38,787 nucleotides of DNA, taken from positions 1-38,787 of the forward strand of contig JAKQHX010000052.1 in assembly GCA_029557815.1 (NCBI GenBank), given 5' to 3'. The notes beneath the pieces were generated by a model that was given only the letters and a program-made list of their open reading frames with translations, did not search any database and was not told where the DNA came from. Positions within the stretch are counted from its first letter, which is position 1, and every line of letters starts with the position of its first letter. Positions 4,157 through 26,997 of this stretch are shown piece by piece. The DNA comes from a bacterium. Lineage in GTDB: Bacteria > Patescibacteriota > Saccharimonadia > Saccharimonadales > JAGQNK01. Position numbers and translations under genes: made by a program.

Positions 4157-5668
4157 CTATTTCTGCTGTTTTTTGTCAGCCCGTATGTATTGCTTCAAAA
4201 TTGTCGCTTTTTTAGCGCCTACTACTTTTTCTAGTTCAAAGTCTCGAGCCTGACTTATCCCTCGCATACTACCAAAGGTCCTGAGCAATTTCCTACGCGT
4301 AGCGGGGCCAATGGTGGGCACGTCATCAAGCAAACTTGACGTTTGGCGTTTAGCCTTGAGAACAGAGTGGTAGCTGACCGCAAACCGATGTGATTCGTCG
4401 CGAATCCGTTGCAATAACTTCGTAAGGTTTGAATTGTGCGGCACATTGATAAGTATAAAATCTTCAGACTCCACCGAAAAGCCGCCAAGCTTATGCAGGG
4501 CCACTGTATTCAGTTCTACATTTGACGCTCGTTTTTTTATAACAATCTGCTCTTCACGCTTAGCAAGACCGATAAAAGGAATTTTGCTACAGCCAGCTTC
4601 ATCGCGTGCTCGGATAGCCGCATCCAACTGGCCCTTGCCACCGTCAATAAGCACCAAACTTGGCAAGCCCCACTGTTTACGATTCTTTTCGCCGAGGCGG
4701 CGCTTTATCGTTTCGTGCATGTTATAAAAATCATTGTTATGATCTTTTTTTGTCTTGAACTTGCGATACTCCCCTTTGTTGCTCACACCGTTTGTAAACA
4801 CTACCATGCTTGCTACGACATCCGTTCCTTGCATGTGGCTGATGTCGTATCCCTCGATTCGTTTTGGAAAGCCCTGCAGTCCAAGCAAATCAACAAGTTC
4901 GTTTAGGGCGTGGTCTTTGGAAATGTCCTGGAATTCCTTGTCGCTGAAGATGACCTGCTTGTTCAGCCGCTGGAGCGCGAACAGTTGATTACGTACCTTG
5001 GCCGCCTCCTCAAATTGCGACTGTCTCGCAAGTCGTTTCATATCTTTTTCCAGATCTCTTTCTATGGTTTTGCGCTTGCCTTCAATTATGGCTATGAGCT
5101 TACGAAGATTAGCCCGGTAATCCTCCAAGCTTGTCCGGCCCTCTTCCAGGCCGGGATCCAATCCGAGATGGTAATGTAGCGTAGCACGTCTTTGATTCGG
5201 GGTCCGTTTGGTTGCAAATGGAAATATTTTGCGCAGCAGCTTCAGTGCCTGCCTCACGCCATATGAGCTGAGATATGGACCAAAATACCGCGCTCCATCA
5301 TCGAGCGGCCGACGAGTCGTCGTAACTGTAGGAAAATCGCTGTCATAGTCTATACGAATATACGTCATCGACTTGTCGTCGCGTAACAATATGTTGTAAC
5401 GTGGCATGTAGCGTCGAATCATCTCGGCCTCCAGGAACAATGCCTCCAGCTCGCTTTCGACAACCATCCAGTCTGTATCAGCTATCTCTGCGATGAGTGC
5501 TTCTGTCTTTGGATCGCGAGTGCGAGATTTCTGAAAATACTGCCGCACCCGATTGCGTAGTACGGCCGCTTTGCCGACATAGATAATCTGGCCCTCCGCG
5601 TCCTTATGGAAATACACGCCAGGCTCTTTGGGCAGTTCTTTCAGTTTGTTTTCAAATCTCTCGTCCAC
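4157..5668 (-). CDS. uvrC: excinuclease ABC subunit C, short form
   Basis: Makes the dual incisions around DNA lesions after UvrAB loading. The 503-residue protein has the GIY-YIG nuclease (GVYFHKDAEGQIIYVGKA, with R/N/R following), a UVR motif (about 205-245), the RNase H-like nuclease (EGYDISHMQGTDVVAS and LVLIDGGKGQLDAA supply acidic residues), and a C-terminal helix-hairpin-helix region. It is about 100 residues shorter than E. coli UvrC. Two differences are visible: the cysteine cluster usually seen near CLxYxIGxCxxPC is replaced by a cysteine-free TLHYHLGLDPG, and the beta-rich segment between UVR and the RNase H-like domain is almost absent. The start is GTG, 6 nt after a TATACT box. 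Confidence 0.94.
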   Translation of the reverse strand: MDERFENKLKELPKEPGVYFHKDAEGQIIYVGKAAVLRNRVRQYFQKSRTRDPKTEALIAEIADTDWMVVESELEALFLEAEMIRRYMPRYNILLRDDKSMTYIRIDYDSDFPTVTTTRRPLDDGARYFGPYLSSYGVRQALKLLRKIFPFATKRTPNQRRATLHYHLGLDPGLEEGRTSLEDYRANLRKLIAIIEGKRKTIERDLEKDMKRLARQSQFEEAAKVRNQLFALQRLNKQVIFSDKEFQDISKDHALNELVDLLGLQGFPKRIEGYDISHMQGTDVVASMVVFTNGVSNKGEYRKFKTKKDHNNDFYNMHETIKRRLGEKNRKQWGLPSLVLIDGGKGQLDAAIRARDEAGCSKIPFIGLAKREEQIVIKKRASNVELNTVALHKLGGFSVESEDFILINVPHNSNLTKLLQRIRDESHRFAVSYHSVLKAKRQTSSLLDDVPTIGPATRRKLLRTFGSMRGISQARDFELEKVVGAKKATILKQYIRADKKQQK

Positions 5669-5689: not shown

Positions 5690-6775
5690 CTATCGCCGAG
5701 GAGCTTCTTCATGCGCAACCCGAATATCATGCTTGGAGCAGTCCAGCAGGTCACGGTCATTAATCTCCGGGTCTTTATGGCTTCCGTCTTCGGTTTCTTC
5801 GAGATAATCCTGAATAACCGTATCTACAGCTTGCCGGAACCCCTGCACACTATTGCCATACATAGCGTCAACAGATACATCGTAGTCTTCAATTTCAACA
5901 CGCATGTCATCCAGTTCTTCCGCACTCTGGCCACCTGCCAGATCAGTATTGGCGATGAAGCTCCTGATGCCGCTCTCGAACACCTTTCTGCCCGCCTCGT
6001 CTTGCATCGCACAACTTGCCGCGACACTACCCGTCTCCTGAACGGCAATATCTAGAATATTTCGGGCCCATGTAATTTCGTTTGTGCCGACGCACATATC
6101 GATGCCACCACTTGCTCCACGAACATCTATTACATTATCTCTGTAATCCACGCTTGCATCTGTCATGGTTATGCCACCACTAACTTCTGCAGTTATTTGA
6201 TCTCCGTCACGTGTCACGGCCAACGACTCAATGACAAGGCCCGTATTGGTCGTGGTAGTTATCTTATCGTCTTCTCCCTCTTTGCCAGTATGACGTGTCT
6301 GGGTATCACAATTGATTGGCCCAGGACGGTCAAGGGAAGTATCTAACGAAATTCCAAAAGTAGACTCAACCCTTGCAAGGTTCAGATACACGTCTTCATA
6401 TACTTCGGTCTCGGGCGCCTCAATCGCAAGCTCGACAGAGTGGCTTGACTTTGGACTAAAAGGATTGCCTAAACCATCAAGCCATTGCTTGACCTGTATA
6501 CCGGCAATGCCGACAGCACCGACCAGACCAATCGCTCCTACCATTTTTGCCCGACGCATAAATCTACCAGGACGACTCTGCTCTACCACTACATTAATCG
6601 CTGGGCTTGGCTCAGCCGCTCCAGGGGAAGGTGCTTCGTAATCTCCCTGCGCACTGAGAAGAGGGGCGTCGTCAAAGTCTACCCTCTCACGCATTTCGTA
6701 CCTGCCCGTACCATCGGGGTTAACACTCACCGGGAACATCTCTCCAATAGGGACTTTTGATTCTTGACCACTCAT
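5690..6775 (-). CDS. single-pass membrane protein of unknown function
   Basis: The 361-residue product is not one I can assign with confidence. It has a polar N-terminal segment, a basic stretch then a hydrophobic segment at about 78-95 (VGAIGLVGAVGIAG), and a 260-residue mainly beta-like C-terminal part that should lie outside the cell. This part contains several Thr-rich and Asp/Glu-rich stretches and few cysteines. Its ATG overlaps the stop of the upstream wall-hydrolase gene by one base (TAATG) and has GGAG about 8 nt upstream, so the two are translationally coupled. That suggests a partner of the hydrolase, for example an inhibitor, chaperone or anchor, but this is inference from position only. 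Confidence 0.8.
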   Translation of the reverse strand: MSGQESKVPIGEMFPVSVNPDGTGRYEMRERVDFDDAPLLSAQGDYEAPSPGAAEPSPAINVVVEQSRPGRFMRRAKMVGAIGLVGAVGIAGIQVKQWLDGLGNPFSPKSSHSVELAIEAPETEVYEDVYLNLARVESTFGISLDTSLDRPGPINCDTQTRHTGKEGEDDKITTTTNTGLVIESLAVTRDGDQITAEVSGGITMTDASVDYRDNVIDVRGASGGIDMCVGTNEITWARNILDIAVQETGSVAASCAMQDEAGRKVFESGIRSFIANTDLAGGQSAEELDDMRVEIEDYDVSVDAMYGNSVQGFRQAVDTVIQDYLEETEDGSHKDPEINDRDLLDCSKHDIRVAHEEAPRR

Positions 6776-9540
6776 TATTTTTCTCCTTGCGCCATGTCCG
6801 GCGTGTTATAAATACTGACTAAAACTTTGCCATCTTCGTTTGTCCTCAAGCCGTCAATCCACTTATCAAGAGCCTCTTGGTCTACCTCGCCGTTCTCGAT
6901 GAAATAAACCCTATATGCCTTTAGCGCAGCCTCTGGGCTAATCCAAGCACTGCCACGTATTTCGGCTTCCGGTAGACTCGTTGTTGTAGTGGTTTGTCCA
7001 GCTTCAGTTGTTGTAGTCACAGCAGCCTGGGTTGTGGTAGACGCTTCGGGTGTCGTTTCGCCCAATTGGGCACGCACAAGTTCTTCATAACCATGTCTTT
7101 TAATGACATCGAAAACCTTTTGCTCGTAATCACGATCCGTACCGTAGCTCAAAACTCCTGGCGCTCCCTGTTCCTTGACGATATTTCCACTACCATCAAC
7201 CTCGTTGAACAGCCCATTCGTATAGCCGTGTACATCCTGGTAATTTGCGGCCGCATCGGCATAATGTTCTGAGGTTTGGATGAGTCGTGCGTAGTCCGCC
7301 ACGCTCGCGGCCGGGCTTGGATACACCCTGAAGCCGTCAGTAATTGTCACTACGTCACCAGCTGTGTATTCTTCCTTTGTATCGATATTAAATACGTCGC
7401 CCGTCCAATGTGCACCCGCCTTCATGCCAAAGAAGTTGTTTGTCGCAGGACTGAGCCTATCATTACCGAAACCTGTCTCCAGTGATGTCTGAGCCAATAC
7501 AACCGCAGGATTTATGTGAGCCCCTGTGCGATACACCGTCGTAATACTCGGTAGCATTCGGCGCAAGAAGTCTTTGTGTCCATCCGGGAGATTAAGTTGG
7601 TTAATCATTTCCTCTGCTGCAGGACTCAACGGCTCAGTATCAGCAGGAAGTTCCGGATTAGGATTACCGGCTGGCGTCTCAGAACCAGGATGCTCAACTG
7701 GTGCGTCACTTGTTGGATTACCATAGGCTTTCCCATGCTCAGCAACCCACGCCTCAAAGTCACTATGCTGGGAAGCGTGCTGCTCGGCAGTAATGCTCTG
7801 TGCCATACCGGCAATACGCAGATCCTGATCCACGCTCCATGGTAATTCGGCGGCTCTTACACGCCACTGTGGTAGTGCGAGGTCTTTGCGCAACTGTACG
7901 TGGAAATGGTCTTCGTGATGTTCGAAGTCAACCATAAACCGACGTCCAACCCGCTGATTTATTTCTGGAACCATAGTATTCCCACTGGATAGAATTTTAT
8001 CGATAACCGGCTGGCCACCTGAGTAAAGTCGGGCCATCTCCTCAGCCATTCGTATAGTGAATTCTTTATTAAACCTTTCAGAAAACTGATAGTCAGCAAA
8101 GGCCCCTGTCGCGTATTGTGTAACATCAAATCCAAAGGCGCCAGAAATGTCAGCATGACGGCCGTCATTGTGCGTGCGGTGGGCAGGTGAATTCTGATCA
8201 CGGATACGAAGCATATCACCTTGTAATTCCGGGAACTCGGCAATCAAGTCCTGGTAGATTTTTGCGCTTGCAAGCAATGTTGCAACCATATGGGGTGATG
8301 TGTACAGTTCGTTATCTGCTGTGCGCTCAGCCACGGTATAGGGTACGGCGAGACCCTCAGCTTCGTGCAAGAGCGGCATCTTTATATAGTCAGCCGGCAT
8401 TCCTGCTGGTCGATTTGGATCATTTGGCGCAAAGGCGACATCCATTCGTTTAACTGCCTCAACCAGCGTATCAAGGTTGTTATTTTGACCGGGCTTAATT
8501 TCAACTAACGCCTCATTAACGGCTAGGACTTCAGGGCTTATTACATCACTTACTTCTGGGGTAGTTACTGCTGGAGAAGCCTCCTGCGCTGTAACATCAG
8601 GAGCCGTCGCAGCCACAGCACCGGCGATTATACGATCCCGCGCTTCATTGTTGAGCAGTGCGGGATCCGTAAATCGCAAAGTTTCACTTTCTTGATCAAA
8701 TTCCACCGCTTCGACAGAAACGCCCGCCGCTTCCGCCGCGGCGAAGCGGGACTGTTCTAGGTCCTGGCCAGCTGCGTCAAACTTGATATAAGCACTGGTT
8801 TCATCGTATCCAACCACTATTTCCTGTGCGCCTGTTTCAGGCGTGAGGGAGATATCAGTCTCACCTTGACTAGAAACTGCAATAGCAGAGGCCAAGATGC
8901 CCACACTAACAACTGCTGCCACAATACGACGCGGAGAGACATTAAGCTGGTCGGCAATACTTTCGATTGCCTCAACTGTCGCAGCCGTACCCTTTCGTAA
9001 ATCATCCCCAAGTGCAGGAAGTACAGATGCCAGATAATCACTAACGGATTCTCCCTCCGGCACCATCAAAGCATCGTGCTTCAAACTATGCAGCATTTCA
9101 CGCCACGCTTGCCCGGATTGGCCAAATTCTTCCCGCACTTCTGACTTGGTCTTTTCCCACCAATCCATAAATGTTGCCGAGCGATCTCTCGGGATTAGGA
9201 CGTGGTCGAGGTCACCGTCTTTGGGCAAATCTATACTTTTCACCCCTATTCGAGTCGTTCCTTGTGGAAGGTCAACTTCTTCCATATCTTCACGCCAGCG
9301 AGGCTCAGGAGAATCTCCAAAAGCACCGCTTGCCATAAGCCGGTCAATACGATTCATGACATCATCCAAGAAAGCAATAGCTTCGGGATCGTGCGTCTCC
9401 GGCCCATAACTTACGCCTTGGAGCCGCTCCGTAACCTGTGGTTGACCACTTCTAATAACATCTCCGGTTACGCGGAGGTCACTAACAAAACCATTGACTT
9501 CGGGATGATCTGCTAAACCGCCTAAAGACTCGTAGCTCAT
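6775..9540 (-). CDS. large anchored cell-wall hydrolase: LAS-type metallopeptidase plus GH73-like glucosaminidase
   Basis: Predicted to cut both peptide cross-bridges and glycan strands of peptidoglycan. In the 921-residue protein an intracellular-looking region of about 200 residues precedes one hydrophobic segment (about 205-222). A LAS/MepA-like peptidase region follows, with H-x6-D (HNDGRHAD, about 456-463) and H-x-H (DHFHVQL, about 545). Then comes a FlgJ/LytG-like glucosaminidase with the catalytic-Glu context TSLETGFGND (about 688) and NNFFGMKAG, a Thr-rich linker and a short C-terminal domain. I start at the ATG at 9540, which has GGAAAGG upstream, rather than at the in-frame GTG at 9585 that lies in an inverted repeat. 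Exact peptidase family (M15 or M74) is uncertain. Confidence 0.88.
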   Translation of the reverse strand: MSYESLGGLADHPEVNGFVSDLRVTGDVIRSGQPQVTERLQGVSYGPETHDPEAIAFLDDVMNRIDRLMASGAFGDSPEPRWREDMEEVDLPQGTTRIGVKSIDLPKDGDLDHVLIPRDRSATFMDWWEKTKSEVREEFGQSGQAWREMLHSLKHDALMVPEGESVSDYLASVLPALGDDLRKGTAATVEAIESIADQLNVSPRRIVAAVVSVGILASAIAVSSQGETDISLTPETGAQEIVVGYDETSAYIKFDAAGQDLEQSRFAAAEAAGVSVEAVEFDQESETLRFTDPALLNNEARDRIIAGAVAATAPDVTAQEASPAVTTPEVSDVISPEVLAVNEALVEIKPGQNNNLDTLVEAVKRMDVAFAPNDPNRPAGMPADYIKMPLLHEAEGLAVPYTVAERTADNELYTSPHMVATLLASAKIYQDLIAEFPELQGDMLRIRDQNSPAHRTHNDGRHADISGAFGFDVTQYATGAFADYQFSERFNKEFTIRMAEEMARLYSGGQPVIDKILSSGNTMVPEINQRVGRRFMVDFEHHEDHFHVQLRKDLALPQWRVRAAELPWSVDQDLRIAGMAQSITAEQHASQHSDFEAWVAEHGKAYGNPTSDAPVEHPGSETPAGNPNPELPADTEPLSPAAEEMINQLNLPDGHKDFLRRMLPSITTVYRTGAHINPAVVLAQTSLETGFGNDRLSPATNNFFGMKAGAHWTGDVFNIDTKEEYTAGDVVTITDGFRVYPSPAASVADYARLIQTSEHYADAAANYQDVHGYTNGLFNEVDGSGNIVKEQGAPGVLSYGTDRDYEQKVFDVIKRHGYEELVRAQLGETTPEASTTTQAAVTTTTEAGQTTTTTSLPEAEIRGSAWISPEAALKAYRVYFIENGEVDQEALDKWIDGLRTNEDGKVLVSIYNTPDMAQGEK

Positions 9541-9614: not shown

Positions 9615-9643
9615 ATTCTACGCTATTTTTGCTATTTTGTCAA
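9615..9643 (-). promoter_or_regulatory. strong sigma70-type promoter of the wall-hydrolase operon
   Basis: TTGACA (9638-9643), a 17-nt spacer and TAGAAT (9615-9620) match the consensus closely. The predicted start is near 9608, giving a leader of about 68 nt with a Shine-Dalgarno. This is the best promoter in the window. Confidence 0.85.
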
Positions 9644-9650
9644 TACTACA

Positions 9651-9857
9651 TTATAAGTAGCCATTTGTCTGGCCATTTGGCTCGATGACCAAAGGAGTGG
9701 TCTTAGCCTTTTCCGCGATAACCGCTGCCGGGTTTGCCATTTCGCTTGCGATAAGGTCGATATCTACCGTCCGTCGCACTATTATCCCTGGCCCATAAGG
9801 ATTTGACCGCCTCTCTACAATTGGCGGGTACGGCATCTCCATACGCTTGCCACTCAT
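9651..9857 (-). CDS. small protein of unknown function
   Basis: A 68-residue protein that I do not recognise. It has no membrane segment, is rich in proline near the N-terminus (MEMPYPPIVERRSNPYGPG) and has a short Ala-rich helical stretch. It begins inside the stop of trhO through a 4-nt ATGA overlap and has AGGAGT upstream, so it is translated from the same mRNA. The stop lies next to the promoter of the following operon. Its coupling and good Shine-Dalgarno argue that it is real. Confidence 0.7.
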   Translation of the reverse strand: MSGKRMEMPYPPIVERRSNPYGPGIIVRRTVDIDLIASEMANPAAVIAEKAKTTPLVIEPNGQTNGYL

Positions 9858-10747
9858 TGTTTGACTCCTGTATTAAAAGACATGCTCACGCAATCATTAC
9901 AATAACTTTGCTTATCGCATGTTTCACAGACTAACACCAATTTGTTGCATGCGACATTGTTGCAATTTATATACCGGCTGGTCTTTTGATCGCAGTGGAT
10001 ACAGCTACCGATATCATGGGCTTTGTCGCTGAATTGCATCTGCATTCTGTCGTCAAAAATGTGCAACTTTCCTTCCCACTGGCCATCATCACCATATGTT
10101 TCACCGTACTTCACAATACCGCCGTCAATTTGGTACACCTCTTTGAAGCCACGATTCTTCATCATCGCACTGATAACTTCACAACGGACGCCGCCTGTAC
10201 AGTACGTCACAATAGGCCTGTCTTTGATGTCGTTATACTTGGGATCCTCAAGTTCATCGGCAAAATCCCGGGAAGTTTCAACGTCAGGCACGACCGCACC
10301 CTTGAATCTGCCAATTTCTGCCTCATACTTGTTGCGACCGTCAAAAAAGACCACCTCGTCACCACGCTCTTCAAGCAACTTATGGACCTCTTTGGGCTTC
10401 AGGTGTTTGCCGCCATTTTCAACACCCTTTTCTGATACGATAATTTCATCGGCCGCATTCAGGGCGACTAGCTCCGGCCTTACTTTGATCTTGAGCTTTG
10501 GAAAGTCCTTACCAGTACCATCACTCCACTTGTACATGATTCCCTTGAACACAACTGATTTGTTCATCTCCCGTTTGTACTGGCGCAAATCCTCTATATG
10601 GCCGCCAAGCGTACCATTGATACCATGTTCAGAAATAAGCACACGCCCCTTCAAGTTCAGTCGGGCACACAGCTCACGCTGCCAGCGCATAGTCATCTCA
10701 GGATCCTTCACTGGCACAAATTTGTAATATAAAATAATCTTTTGCAT
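9854..10747 (-). CDS. trhO: tRNA uridine(34) hydroxylase (rhodanese family)
   Basis: Family known to hydroxylate uridine 34 of certain tRNAs (formerly YceA). The 297-residue protein has an N-terminal acylphosphatase-like domain, a central rhodanese domain with the active-site loop YCTGGVRCE (about 187-195), and a C-terminal cysteine-rich region with CIHC, C-N-N-V-A-C, CETC and CNDC, probably a zinc site. The ATG has no Shine-Dalgarno, and TATAAT lies 8 nt upstream, suggesting a leaderless mRNA. It is divergent from the ABC exporter and overlaps the downstream 68-residue gene by 4 nt. Confidence 0.95.
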   Translation of the reverse strand: MQKIILYYKFVPVKDPEMTMRWQRELCARLNLKGRVLISEHGINGTLGGHIEDLRQYKREMNKSVVFKGIMYKWSDGTGKDFPKLKIKVRPELVALNAADEIIVSEKGVENGGKHLKPKEVHKLLEERGDEVVFFDGRNKYEAEIGRFKGAVVPDVETSRDFADELEDPKYNDIKDRPIVTYCTGGVRCEVISAMMKNRGFKEVYQIDGGIVKYGETYGDDGQWEGKLHIFDDRMQMQFSDKAHDIGSCIHCDQKTSRYINCNNVACNKLVLVCETCDKQSYCNDCVSMSFNTGVKQ

Positions 10748-10761: not shown

Positions 10762-10785
10762 CCTTATAATTTTGAGTCTATTTAT

Positions 10786-10840
10786 GATTAGCCCTTAGGA
10801 CTAATCCTCTATTGCCAACGATCGGACGAGCCGATCCAAT
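10786..10840 (+). promoter_or_regulatory. promoter with two dyads for the ABC exporter
   Basis: TTGCCA (10812-10817), a 17-nt spacer and TCCAAT (10835-10840) form a plausible promoter. A perfect dyad GATCGG-ACGAG-CCGATC (10820-10836) fills the spacer. A second, imperfect dyad with arms GATTAG and CTAATC (10786-10806) lies just upstream of the -35 box. Both are in the position expected for regulator sites; the protein that binds is unknown. Confidence 0.55.
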
Positions 10841-10882
10841 AGCACCTATACAAATACCAAAACTTGATGTATTAGACGTAAA

Positions 10883-10904
10883 TCACCTGTTAGGAGGCAG
10901 GTGA
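10883..10904 (+). promoter_or_regulatory. hairpin presenting the Shine-Dalgarno of the ABC exporter
   Basis: TCACCTG (10883-10889) and CAGGTGA (10898-10904) form a perfect 7-bp stem. The 8-nt loop TTAGGAGG holds the full AGGAGG ribosome-binding site, 9 nt before the ATG at 10907. The arrangement may tune translation. Confidence 0.65.
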
Positions 10905-10906
10905 CC

Positions 10907-12709
10907 ATGAAAACAATTACCGCTCAAACAACTCGGCAAGTATTTTTATTTTACTGGCAGCAAGCAGCAAAGTATCCATTATTCGTGCTTGGGGCATTTA
11001 TTGCTATGCCTATTACTGTTCTTGTAAACACTTTCTTGCCTCCACTTATACTCGCGAATGTCCTTAATCGGCTGAGCGCAGGTGAATTTGTCGTAAACCA
11101 GCCATGGCAGAGCTTTGGTGGTGATATAAGTCTCTACATACTTCTGACCCTATCAGGGAGCATAGTGCTTTGGAGAATCGTTGATGCCTGTGTATGGACA
11201 GTTGAAGGCCGTGTCCAGCGCGATCTTGCGCGCAAAGTCTTCAACCACCTCATGAGCCGCAGTGCGGACTTTCATGCAAACAATTTTTCCGGCTCGCTCG
11301 TTTCGCAGACAAATAAACTACTTGGCTCATACATACGTATTGCCGATACAACAATATTTGGCACGCTTCCACTCCTGTTGAGTATTGTCTTCACTTCTGT
11401 GATTTTATTCCCGCGAGCGCCTTGGTTTGTCGTTGGGCTAATCGTCCTTTCGTTGCTGTACATTGTCCTTTCGTTCAAAGTTTCTGCACCTGTACGAAAA
11501 GTTGGAGCATACCATTCTAGGCTGGAGAGCAAGCAGACGGGTTATTTAGCTGACGCCATCACTAATGCCATGGCCATAAAAAGTTTTGCCGCAGATGGGC
11601 GAGAACGCCAGTCATTCGACAAGGTCACAAACCGCACGCATAAAGCACTAAAAAAAGTTATGTTCGCCCACCAGAAGCAGATGCTTTTCTTTGGTACTGC
11701 AAGCGGAACCATCTCTGCAGCATCGTTAATACTAGCTGTTGTAAGTGTCGTGAGCTTTGGGGCAAACATAGCCACTGCATTTCTCATATTCAACTATACC
11801 GCTAGTATCGTTCAGCAGCTGTTTCAGTTCAGTAACAATGCCATCCGAAACTATAACCGAGCAATTGGCGACGCAAGTGATATGGTCTCCATATTAGACG
11901 AGCCGGCTGAAGTGCAGGATCCCGCAAACCCAGAATCATCAAAAATTGTTCGCGGAGACATCCGGTTGGTTCACACCACTTTCAAGCACAAAGGGTCAAA
12001 CGAGCCAATTTTCAAGAACCTGAACCTACATATTAAGCCTGGCGAGAAAGTAGGACTGGTGGGGCAATCTGGGTCCGGCAAATCCTCTCTTACCAGAATT
12101 CTGTTGCGGTTTTCGGACATCGATGGCGGCGAGATTCTTCTGGATAATCAGAATATTGCTAGAATCACCCAAAACGATTTACGACGTGCAATTGCTTACG
12201 TGCCGCAAGAGCCACTGCTTTTTCATCGTAGTATCGCAGAAAACATAGGCTATAGTTCTGGCACGACGGACTTGCGCGTGATATCGGCAGTCGCCCGCAA
12301 GGCAAACGCCCATGAATTCATAGAAGCTCTACCTGAAAAATACGATACCCTTGTTGGCGAACGTGGCGTCAAACTCTCCGGTGGCCAACGTCAGCGTATT
12401 GCAATTGCCCGCGCCATGCTCAAGAATGCGCCCATATTAGTACTGGACGAAGCTACGTCTGCTCTGGACAGTGAGAGTGAAGTCCTCATTCAGGACGCAC
12501 TATGGAAACTCATGGAAGGCCGGACGGCAATTGTCATCGCCCACCGACTGAGCACCATTCAAAAAATGGATAGGATACTGGTGATGGACAAAGGCAAGAT
12601 CATCGAAGAAGGGTCACATAAGGACTTGCTTCGTTTGAACGGCACCTACGCAAAACTTTGGAATCATCAGTCAGGTGGATTTCTAGAGGAAGAGACCGAG
12701 GAGCAATAA
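10907..12709 (+). CDS. ABC exporter, fused permease and ATPase (MsbA/LmrA-like)
   Basis: Half-transporter that should dimerise to export a lipid, drug or peptide; the substrate cannot be read from sequence. The first 320 of 600 residues form the six-helix exporter domain. The ATPase domain has Walker A GQSGSGKSS (about 389), the Q-loop region, signature LSGGQRQR (about 490), Walker B ILVLDEATSALD (about 512) and the switch His in IVIAHRLST. I start at ATG 10907, 9 nt after AGGAGG; the in-frame GTG at 10901 is too close to it. It is the only gene between divergent trhO and the convergent acidic protein gene, whose 3' end it overlaps by 27 bp. Its regulatory region is the most elaborate here. 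Confidence 0.94.
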   Translation: MKTITAQTTRQVFLFYWQQAAKYPLFVLGAFIAMPITVLVNTFLPPLILANVLNRLSAGEFVVNQPWQSFGGDISLYILLTLSGSIVLWRIVDACVWTVEGRVQRDLARKVFNHLMSRSADFHANNFSGSLVSQTNKLLGSYIRIADTTIFGTLPLLLSIVFTSVILFPRAPWFVVGLIVLSLLYIVLSFKVSAPVRKVGAYHSRLESKQTGYLADAITNAMAIKSFAADGRERQSFDKVTNRTHKALKKVMFAHQKQMLFFGTASGTISAASLILAVVSVVSFGANIATAFLIFNYTASIVQQLFQFSNNAIRNYNRAIGDASDMVSILDEPAEVQDPANPESSKIVRGDIRLVHTTFKHKGSNEPIFKNLNLHIKPGEKVGLVGQSGSGKSSLTRILLRFSDIDGGEILLDNQNIARITQNDLRRAIAYVPQEPLLFHRSIAENIGYSSGTTDLRVISAVARKANAHEFIEALPEKYDTLVGERGVKLSGGQRQRIAIARAMLKNAPILVLDEATSALDSESEVLIQDALWKLMEGRTAIVIAHRLSTIQKMDRILVMDKGKIIEEGSHKDLLRLNGTYAKLWNHQSGGFLEEETEEQ

Positions 12710-24574: not shown

Positions 24575-25720
24575 TTAGCGATAGATGAACTTCTGGAACT
24601 TGCTATGTACGGGCACCCAGTCACTATAGCCCGTCGCACCCCATCCGGCGAGGCCGTTCATGTCCGAATACTTTATCATCGTGCCGTCCGGTGAAACAGC
24701 TTCAACGACACCAACATGCCCAAGCCCACCAGCATCTGTCTGCGCGACCGCACCGGGCCGCGGGATGGCACTCACCGTCCAACCACTGCCGGCGGCATAG
24801 TTGTCCCAGGTATTGGCGTTACCCCAGTTCGCAGGTACTGCTACTTTATTGGCAGCGTACCATGTACACCAGCCATAATCATAGCCGTTATAACCGTAGA
24901 TGGGCGTATTACCCCAGGCGGCTGCTCCATAGCCGCCAAATGATGCCACGTTGTAAGTAGTAGAGACTTTGGTACCATCAGGAATAACGATTCGCCGACC
25001 CACCACCAGACCAAGCACTTCGGCGTCATTGAACGCCTCTATGGCAGCTTTGCTCGCATTGTATTCACGTGCCAACTTGTCAGCAGTATCACCAGCCTTG
25101 ACCAGGTAAACAATACCATTGACCGGAGGAATGTAGAGCTCCCGACCCACTGGCAATTCATTGCTCTCTATGTTGTTCGACCAACGAATACTGTCTGAAG
25201 TTACGCCAAACTTGGCAGCAACGGTCGCAAGTGTATCCCCCGGCTTAACGACATATACCTGGATATCCTTATACGACTTCGCACTTGTACTCACGATCTG
25301 CGGCTTGGCCACGATACGGCTGTCAGCAGAACTTATAGCCAGCTGACCACTAATGGTGTCAGCCTGGTTTACGACTGCCGTAGACTCCGGCAAACTGGCC
25401 ATCCGGGCAAGGTGGACGGCAATATCAGACGAAGATAACTGGTCAAGCGGACTTGCGGCAACCACATCGCTTGACAGCGCGCTTTGCTTGATAGCCTGGC
25501 TCGTATTGGGGCTTTTGAGCACAAACCCAACCACGGCCAATAGCAAAGCTACGTTAGCGGTCACTAGTCCGTAACGGATGATGCGTTTCTGCGACTTTTT
25601 CAGCGTTCGGCCTAGGGTACGTCGGTAGGTCTTGACGACCGGTGACGCGCCTTTGTGCTGGCTTACTGCTTGCGAGAGTATACGAATGACTTTCTCCTGT
25701 TTCGCAGGGTAGCGAAACAT
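24575..25720 (-). CDS. anchored LysM-CHAP peptidoglycan hydrolase
   Basis: Predicted to cut wall peptides by a cysteine amidohydrolase/peptidase (CHAP) domain while two LysM modules hold glycan. In the 381-residue protein a basic cytoplasmic start is followed by a membrane segment (about 52-70). LysM 1 is at about 154-197 (YVVKPGDTLATVAAKFGV...LYIPP) and LysM 2 at about 203-245. The CHAP domain has catalytic Cys in YGWCTWYAA (about 284) and His in GLGHVGVVE (about 334). Domain order fits secreted wall hydrolases. No good Shine-Dalgarno precedes this ATG, and AGGAG lies about 20 nt inside the gene, so the start is slightly uncertain. Confidence 0.93.
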   Translation of the reverse strand: MFRYPAKQEKVIRILSQAVSQHKGASPVVKTYRRTLGRTLKKSQKRIIRYGLVTANVALLLAVVGFVLKSPNTSQAIKQSALSSDVVAASPLDQLSSSDIAVHLARMASLPESTAVVNQADTISGQLAISSADSRIVAKPQIVSTSAKSYKDIQVYVVKPGDTLATVAAKFGVTSDSIRWSNNIESNELPVGRELYIPPVNGIVYLVKAGDTADKLAREYNASKAAIEAFNDAEVLGLVVGRRIVIPDGTKVSTTYNVASFGGYGAAAWGNTPIYGYNGYDYGWCTWYAANKVAVPANWGNANTWDNYAAGSGWTVSAIPRPGAVAQTDAGGLGHVGVVEAVSPDGTMIKYSDMNGLAGWGATGYSDWVPVHSKFQKFIYR

Positions 25721-25932: not shown

Positions 25933-26997
25933 CTACTGACAGAGTTGCGTACAGTGCTCTTTCGTAAGCGCTTCGTGCTCAGCCAATGTACGCGAAAAAT
26001 ATGTTTTTCCGTCATCGCCGGATACGAAGTAAAGATAGTCGGTTTTTGACGGGTTTGAAACCGCTTCCAGCGAGGAAATACTAACGTTACTGATTGGGGT
26101 AGGGGTCAACCCTTTATGTAGGTAGGTGTTGTACTTCGAATCATACATAAGAAGCTCTTCCCTGTTCAGCCTGTTAGCTTCGCCGCTTAAGACCGCCCCG
26201 TAACTCGCTGTCGCATCGGATTGTAGTAATCGTCCCTCCTTCAAGCGTTTGAGAAATACTTGTGCAACCGTTTTTTTGTCGGCGCCATCACTTACCTCTT
26301 GCTCGATGACGGAAGCCAAAATAACTCCTTGGTGTACAGTCAAGCCTTGCCGGACAATACCAGCCCTCAGCTCTGGCGTCAGATACTTTTGCATCTGATC
26401 CAGGGAGGAGCGGATAATTGTCTGCGGATTGGTTTCAGCGGTCTTCTGAAATGACTCCGGGTACAGGTAACCTTCTAGGCTCGCGTTCTTTGGCTTATCA
26501 ACAAGAGCCGGATGATCGTTATAGTTGGACGGATCAAGCGCCGCATCCACCGAAGCAGCGCTAAAGCCATACTTGTCAATCAAGGTGCTGCGCACCTGGT
26601 CAAGCCGCAGCCCAGGAATAATCGTGACAAGATCCGTTGCAACCCGACCCTGCGTTATGACATCAGCAATTTCTGACACCGACAGGTTAGGACGCAAGTT
26701 ATACGTACCAGCCTTCAGGTATTCACGTAAGTTATTAGTCCGGAAATACCACTCAAACGCCCACGACGAACGTATCAGCCCGGCTTCTTTTAGGGAAGCT
26801 CCGACCTCTTGTACCGAAGCACCCTTCTGTACCGTGAAGATCACATTCTTCTGCGAAGCGCTTACGGGACGCAGGTTTTGGTTATACTCACGGCGTATCA
26901 AAAATACACTGGCAAGTACGACGAAAAGGGATACCAAGAGAACGGAAGCTATAATCCTACGCCAGTTTTTTTGTTTGCGGCCACGAGAAAATACCAT
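25933..26997 (-). CDS. mltG: endolytic peptidoglycan transglycosylase MltG (YceG-like)
   Basis: Cuts nascent glycan strands at the membrane and so sets their length. The 354-residue protein has a basic start, one membrane segment (about 14-35), a LysM-like region (about 45-115), and the YceG domain with the catalytic Glu context ILASVIEQEV (about 225), LKEGRLLQSDATASYG, and the typical SKYNTYLHKGLTPTPISNVSISSLEAVSNP, YLYFV and GKTYFSRTLAEH motifs. It begins 2 nt after the ruvX stop, the usual pairing of these two genes in many bacteria. Confidence 0.96.
   Translation of the reverse strand: MVFSRGRKQKNWRRIIASVLLVSLFVVLASVFLIRREYNQNLRPVSASQKNVIFTVQKGASVQEVGASLKEAGLIRSSWAFEWYFRTNNLREYLKAGTYNLRPNLSVSEIADVITQGRVATDLVTIIPGLRLDQVRSTLIDKYGFSAASVDAALDPSNYNDHPALVDKPKNASLEGYLYPESFQKTAETNPQTIIRSSLDQMQKYLTPELRAGIVRQGLTVHQGVILASVIEQEVSDGADKKTVAQVFLKRLKEGRLLQSDATASYGAVLSGEANRLNREELLMYDSKYNTYLHKGLTPTPISNVSISSLEAVSNPSKTDYLYFVSGDDGKTYFSRTLAEHEALTKEHCTQLCQ

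Follow-up and report, generated by a model that had tools for sequence, protein, structure and literature searches.

The locus analysed here raises the question of what a large, apparently membrane-anchored bacterial protein with two putative peptidoglycan-cutting domains acts on, and what the gene coupled to it contributes. We addressed this in a window of 38,787 nucleotides (the whole stretch of DNA that was analysed, from a member of the order Saccharimonadales), and in relatives that all belong to the same order. Bifunctional peptidoglycan hydrolases are common, and we consider it likely that the locus encodes one that is anchored, has an interchangeable catalytic core and a partner protein, and is controlled by c-di-GMP in most relatives. 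The features concerned are as follows.

4157 to 5668, reverse strand: uvrC, the conserved edge of the slot opposite trhO (family match, synteny)
5690 to 6775, reverse strand: partner gene, 361 aa, membrane-anchored, with a Cys-containing ectodomain (its start overlaps the hydrolase stop)
6775 to 9540, reverse strand: anchored bifunctional wall hydrolase, 921 aa (ORF, PF01832, fold match)
6778 to 6942, reverse strand: C-terminal module, residues 867-921, behind a Thr-rich linker, present also in the congener G001 (profile model)
7093 to 7518, reverse strand: GH73 glucosaminidase domain, residues 675-816, with catalytic Glu688 (PF01832)
7717 to 8538, reverse strand: MepA (M74/LAS)-like peptidase region, residues 335-608 (AF2 and Foldseek; alignment with Escherichia coli MepA)
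7900 to 7917, reverse strand: motif H542-x2-H545-x-H547, with Asp for the last His in the relative G058 (motif, alignment)
8149 to 8181, reverse strand: motif H454-x2-H457-x2-G-x3-D464 (motif, alignment)
8869 to 8925, reverse strand: membrane segment, residues 206-224, after RR, with an N-in/C-out orientation expected (hydrophobicity)
8926 to 9540, reverse strand: N-terminal part, residues 1-205, predicted cytoplasmic (shared with G001)
9615 to 9643, reverse strand: promoter-like TTGACA-N17-TAGAAT (consensus match, conserved in G001)
9854 to 10747, reverse strand: trhO (UPF0176 rhodanese), conserved slot edge (family match, synteny)

The hydrolase ORF starts with an ATG at 9540 and is free of stops over its 921 codons. 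From the N to the C terminus, it comprises ∼200 residues, a membrane segment, the MepA-like zinc-peptidase region, the GH73 domain, the Thr-rich linker, and the short C-terminal module. The 200-residue cytoplasmic-looking part and membrane anchor claimed in a preliminary description of this DNA are borne out by residues 1-205 and the segment that follows, which is the most hydrophobic stretch of the hydrolase (Kyte-Doolittle 2.3); the anchoring segment of the homologues is less hydrophobic (1.2-1.7). The protein looks anchored rather than released, with both catalytic domains predicted to face outward. A foreign base composition of the catalytic core was considered and rejected, as its GC content of 0.49-0.50 matches the surroundings. 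The same window also encodes a LysM+CHAP protein (24575-25720, reverse strand) and a YceG/MltG-like protein (25933-26997, reverse strand), both wall enzymes.

For the glycan-cutting half, PF01832 matches with an E-value of 8.6e-22 and 78.5 bits, far above its cut-off of 30.2, and the catalytic Glu688 is invariant across the four homologues, in agreement with the FlgJ/LytG-like glucosaminidase proposed earlier. The closest solved relatives of this part by sequence are FlgJ domains (PDB). Lying behind the peptidase, the domain would be expected to cut the glycan strand.

The peptidase region (residues 335-608) matched nothing in Pfam, NCBIfam, PHROGs, or the PDB sequences, PF03411 (Pfam M74) had no match in the window, and an hhalign comparison of the peptidase with a single MepA sequence was weak. 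Since no profile recognized the region, we turned to fold and motif instead; and since PF03411 did not match, we name the domain MepA-like and refrain from assigning it to Pfam M74. The H-x6-D and H-x-H motifs, placed ∼80 residues apart in the preliminary description, are 81 residues apart (D464 to H545), a loose pair that is weak, being present in 6.7% of shuffles of the hydrolase; the strict set, H-x2-H-x2-G-x3-D followed by H-x2-H-x-H, occurred in 0 of 20,000 shuffles. In an alignment with E. coli K-12 MepA, the six MepA active-site positions, whose roles we take from general knowledge, correspond to (i) H454, H457, and D464 and (ii) H542, H545, and H547, and the motif Gly corresponds as well. 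A search for loss of these residues across orthologues found the full set in G087 and in G053; G058 has five of the six, the last motif His being Asp there, and for this reason one caution on the peptidase remains. Further, Foldseek on an AF2 model, itself shallow (4 sequences; mean pLDDT 48, higher in the peptidase half), found a metallopeptidase-like fold where one had been postulated, in the 440-560 region: the two best matches in the whole PDB were MepA structures, 1u10 (probability 0.99, E-value 0.015) and 1tzp (0.97, 0.022), and all others had probabilities of at most 0.13. A MepA (M74)-like peptidase within the LAS group is thus well supported by modeled fold and conserved motif, and that part of the LAS-type claim stands, although profile and sequence searches recognize nothing. 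This putative extracellular metallo-endopeptidase would be expected to cut the peptide cross-link. The overall reading as a dual cutter is likewise well supported, by the GH73 profile together with the fold and motif of the peptidase, with the missing profile match for the latter as its exception.

The partner gene begins at the last base of the hydrolase stop (TAATG), its start being preceded at a short distance by GGAG, and its product has no known family or fold match (AF2 pLDDT 67, no PDB match), so that the earlier view of a coupled partner of unknown function holds. An assignment to DUF4230 was tried and dropped, since PF14014 did not match the partner in any of nine genomes. A profile search found the partner family in 9 of 295 genomes of the same order (the ninth match being marginal); a further count among sampled Saccharimonadales was 6 of 393, which makes ∼2-3% overall. 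We picture the locus as a two-gene accessory module, whose first gene would encode the anchored peptidoglycan hydrolase and whose second gene a translationally coupled, anchored extracellular protein.

The pair sits between trhO and uvrC, in a slot that many Saccharibacteria leave vacant. These two genes abut in at least 7 of 20 other neighbourhoods (G073, G032, G050, G079, G072, G031, and G006), and the pair, complete or truncated at the end of a contig, is found between them in the window, G001, G053, G087, G064, G080, and G070; in G058 the pair is sited elsewhere. A 68-aa ORF in the window (9651-9857, reverse strand) overlaps the trhO stop and has no family match, and the gap between trhO and the enzyme in G001 is too short for it. 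Beyond trhO lies an MDR-NUDIX RNA-like element (10781-10845, forward strand; RF02918, 40.7 bits, below the gathering score of 54.9), just upstream of an ABC transporter (10901-12709), as also in G001 (46.1 bits).

Comparison of the slot's occupants showed that the catalytic core is not constant. The same-genus relative G001, in which the flanking genes are kept too, shares the N-terminal part (29% identity over 296 aa, E-value 9e-27) and the C-terminal module (E-value 3e-10 for Z=1000, with a model from M74-type proteins); its core consists of Amidase_2 (PF01510, 1.1e-10) and, behind it, a region of another kind that was judged by eye to be lysozyme-like. G080 and G064 have cores of the G001 type, 45-47% identical to that of G001, and the C-terminal link to these two is no more than suggestive. 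G070 has a metallopeptidase-like domain, whose first motif is one residue shorter, followed by SLT (PF01464, 5.8e-15). In a uvrC tree, both core types were found in both main clades, and core type therefore does not follow descent. The core is swapped between lineages, as (i) M74-like plus GH73, (ii) metallopeptidase-like plus SLT, or (iii) Amidase_2 plus lysozyme-like, each of them, as judged from domain content, always predicted to pair one peptide or amide cutter with a glycan cutter behind it. The partner is 60% identical between the window and G001, though their cores are unrelated; because it is so conserved across a complete core change, a role as an inhibitor specific to one core is improbable. 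The partner goes with the scaffold, not with one particular core, and is more likely to be a tether, an activator, or a folding/localization helper.

Two other loci resemble this arrangement. In G078 (L091:4328-7517), the same slot holds two anchored proteins side by side, one of 743 aa with a C39-like peptidase (PF13529) and one of 323 aa, possibly a further core type. In G041 (L129:638-4723), the genes behind a riboswitch encode an anchored protein of 285 aa and a LysM protein of 829 aa, the latter with an H-x6-D/H-x-H region and a phage tail lysozyme (PF18013), a similar design of peptide and glycan cutter. Comparison of our partner with the neighbouring proteins in G078 and G041 did not establish homology.

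The predicted control of the operon differs between this genus and most relatives. The preliminary description credited the hydrolase with the strongest promoter in the window, and the site at 9643-9615 is indeed the sole 11/12 consensus match there, the total number of such matches being equal to chance. The window and G001 have this TTGACA site and no RF01786 match upstream of the operon, whereas a c-di-GMP-II riboswitch (RF01786) with a terminator precedes it in five of the six relatives with sequenced upstream DNA: G087 (65.2 bits), G053 (62.2), G064 (61.7), G080 (56.3), and G058 (53.3, which is 0.2 bits below the gathering score of 53.5). In G070, the upstream DNA is absent (contig end). 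Behind each of the five aptamers lies a terminator-like hairpin with a T run, more stable than nearly all shuffles (within their 0.2% tail or beyond it). In four of the five, the closing strand of the aptamer can pair with the first arm of the terminator. Such pairing would imply that c-di-GMP turns the operon off, but it is weak compared with shuffles (fractions of 0.02-0.36, and 0.61 in G058). In these relatives, c-di-GMP is probably an OFF signal for the operon. Transcription would be gated by riboswitch and terminator in most relatives, and driven from a near-consensus promoter instead in this genus.

The riboswitch is not confined to this operon. Of 295 Saccharimonadales genomes, 32 contain RF01786: 6 of the 8 that bear the partner, against 26 of the remaining 287 (Fisher p 2.5e-5, uncorrected for relatedness). 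A further match directly precedes a GGDEF gene in G058, G064, and G080, the same placement recurs in G098, G032, G073, and G092, and a GGDEF gene is kept in both the window and G001. These sites look like a c-di-GMP regulon in Saccharibacteria. At other sites, inspected by eye, the genes downstream encode large surface-like proteins and SCP/CAP-like proteins; loci with riboswitches before GGDEF genes or large surface-like proteins include L150, L152, L157, L158, and L161. In G080, two aptamers (L031:3404-3486 and 5566-5649) flank a reverse-strand 651-aa gene inserted between trhO and the hydrolase operon. Our searches of an open-access library turned up no article about c-di-GMP riboswitches in Saccharibacteria, nor any that names a wall hydrolase as a c-di-GMP-II riboswitch target.

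Whose wall would the enzyme open? An accessory anchored enzyme that changes its core but keeps its scaffold and partner agrees with a surface tool with a varying substrate, and for an epibiont the host wall is a likelier variable substrate than its own. The preliminary description suggested that the enzyme may attack the host wall at the site of contact; the host wall is a plausible target, indirectly favoured by the accessory distribution, the core exchange, and the riboswitch in most relatives. Alternatively, the protein could be an ordinary autolysin that serves daughter separation or remodelling of the cell's own wall, as Atl or FlgJ-type enzymes do. Its anchoring in the cell's own membrane agrees with such a role, and dual autolysins that join amidase to GH73, or peptidase to glycosidase, are known for own-wall turnover (PMC6403190); however, a partner family present in only ∼2-3% of the sampled genomes, a slot empty in many, and a core exchange unusual for a housekeeping function leave this the less likely reading. 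A narrower doubt concerns the peptidase, which might be a degenerate, non-catalytic binder that leaves the cutting to GH73. Its divergence beyond all profiles and the His-to-Asp change in G058 would fit, but with all six active-site positions present in the window and two relatives, and five in G058, we judge this unlikely.

About equally improbable is an antagonism module, in which the hydrolase would be a toxin aimed at competing bacterial cells, with the partner serving as immunity or inhibitor protein. The coupled gene pair, the accessory distribution, and the exchange of catalytic domains between shared N- and C-terminal parts are indeed reminiscent of polymorphic toxins; yet the conservation of the partner across unrelated cores means that it is not core-specific, the enzyme appears anchored rather than released, and the hydrolase has no visible toxin-delivery module. 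Capture of a phage endolysin at a hotspot is very improbable: although endolysin profiles in PHROGs do recognize the GH73 part, pattern-seeded searches of 2.9 million viral contigs detected nothing related to the peptidase domain or to the partner, the flanks trhO and uvrC are conserved and cellular, and the long N-terminal part and membrane segment also speak against such an origin.

We thus favour a regulated enzyme that would open walls at the cell surface, the wall of the host being a likelier target than the cell's own. In a more specific and tentative form, this would be a c-di-GMP-gated host-wall-opening module, in which a fixed anchored scaffold and a new partner carry swapped cutter pairs, perhaps matching host wall chemistry, and are switched along with other c-di-GMP-controlled surface genes. 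The locus offers a concrete candidate for the means by which epibiotic Saccharibacteria get through a host wall or make use of it. It also raises the possibility that core type is linked to the wall chemistry of the host, and it would add a peptidoglycan hydrolase, in a reduced-genome symbiont, to the genes under c-di-GMP riboswitch control.

Compared with known systems, each part is of a known kind. E. coli MepA (1u10, 1tzp) is the closest PDB fold and has both strict motifs, but it is ∼20% identical, single-domain, and periplasmic, whereas the domain in the window is fused to GH73 and anchored. The GH73 enzymes (the FlgJ C-terminal domain, LytG, and Auto) share the PF01832 domain and catalytic Glu; unlike FlgJ, the hydrolase has no flagellar part and falls under the FlgJ equivalog cut-off (TIGR02541, 73.9 versus 193 bits). 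The aptamers are c-di-GMP-II riboswitches (RF01786), upstream of the operon in five relatives and in neither the window nor its congener. The combination of M74 and GH73 is missing from those tabulated in a 2019 review, where M74 pairs with amidases and SLT1 (PMC6403190). Like the bifunctional autolysins and conjugation hydrolases Atl, AcmB, CwlT, and PrgK, the protein would join a peptide or amide cutter and a glycan cutter in one chain, but the module described here differs from them in its exchangeable core, its partner gene, and, in relatives, its riboswitch.
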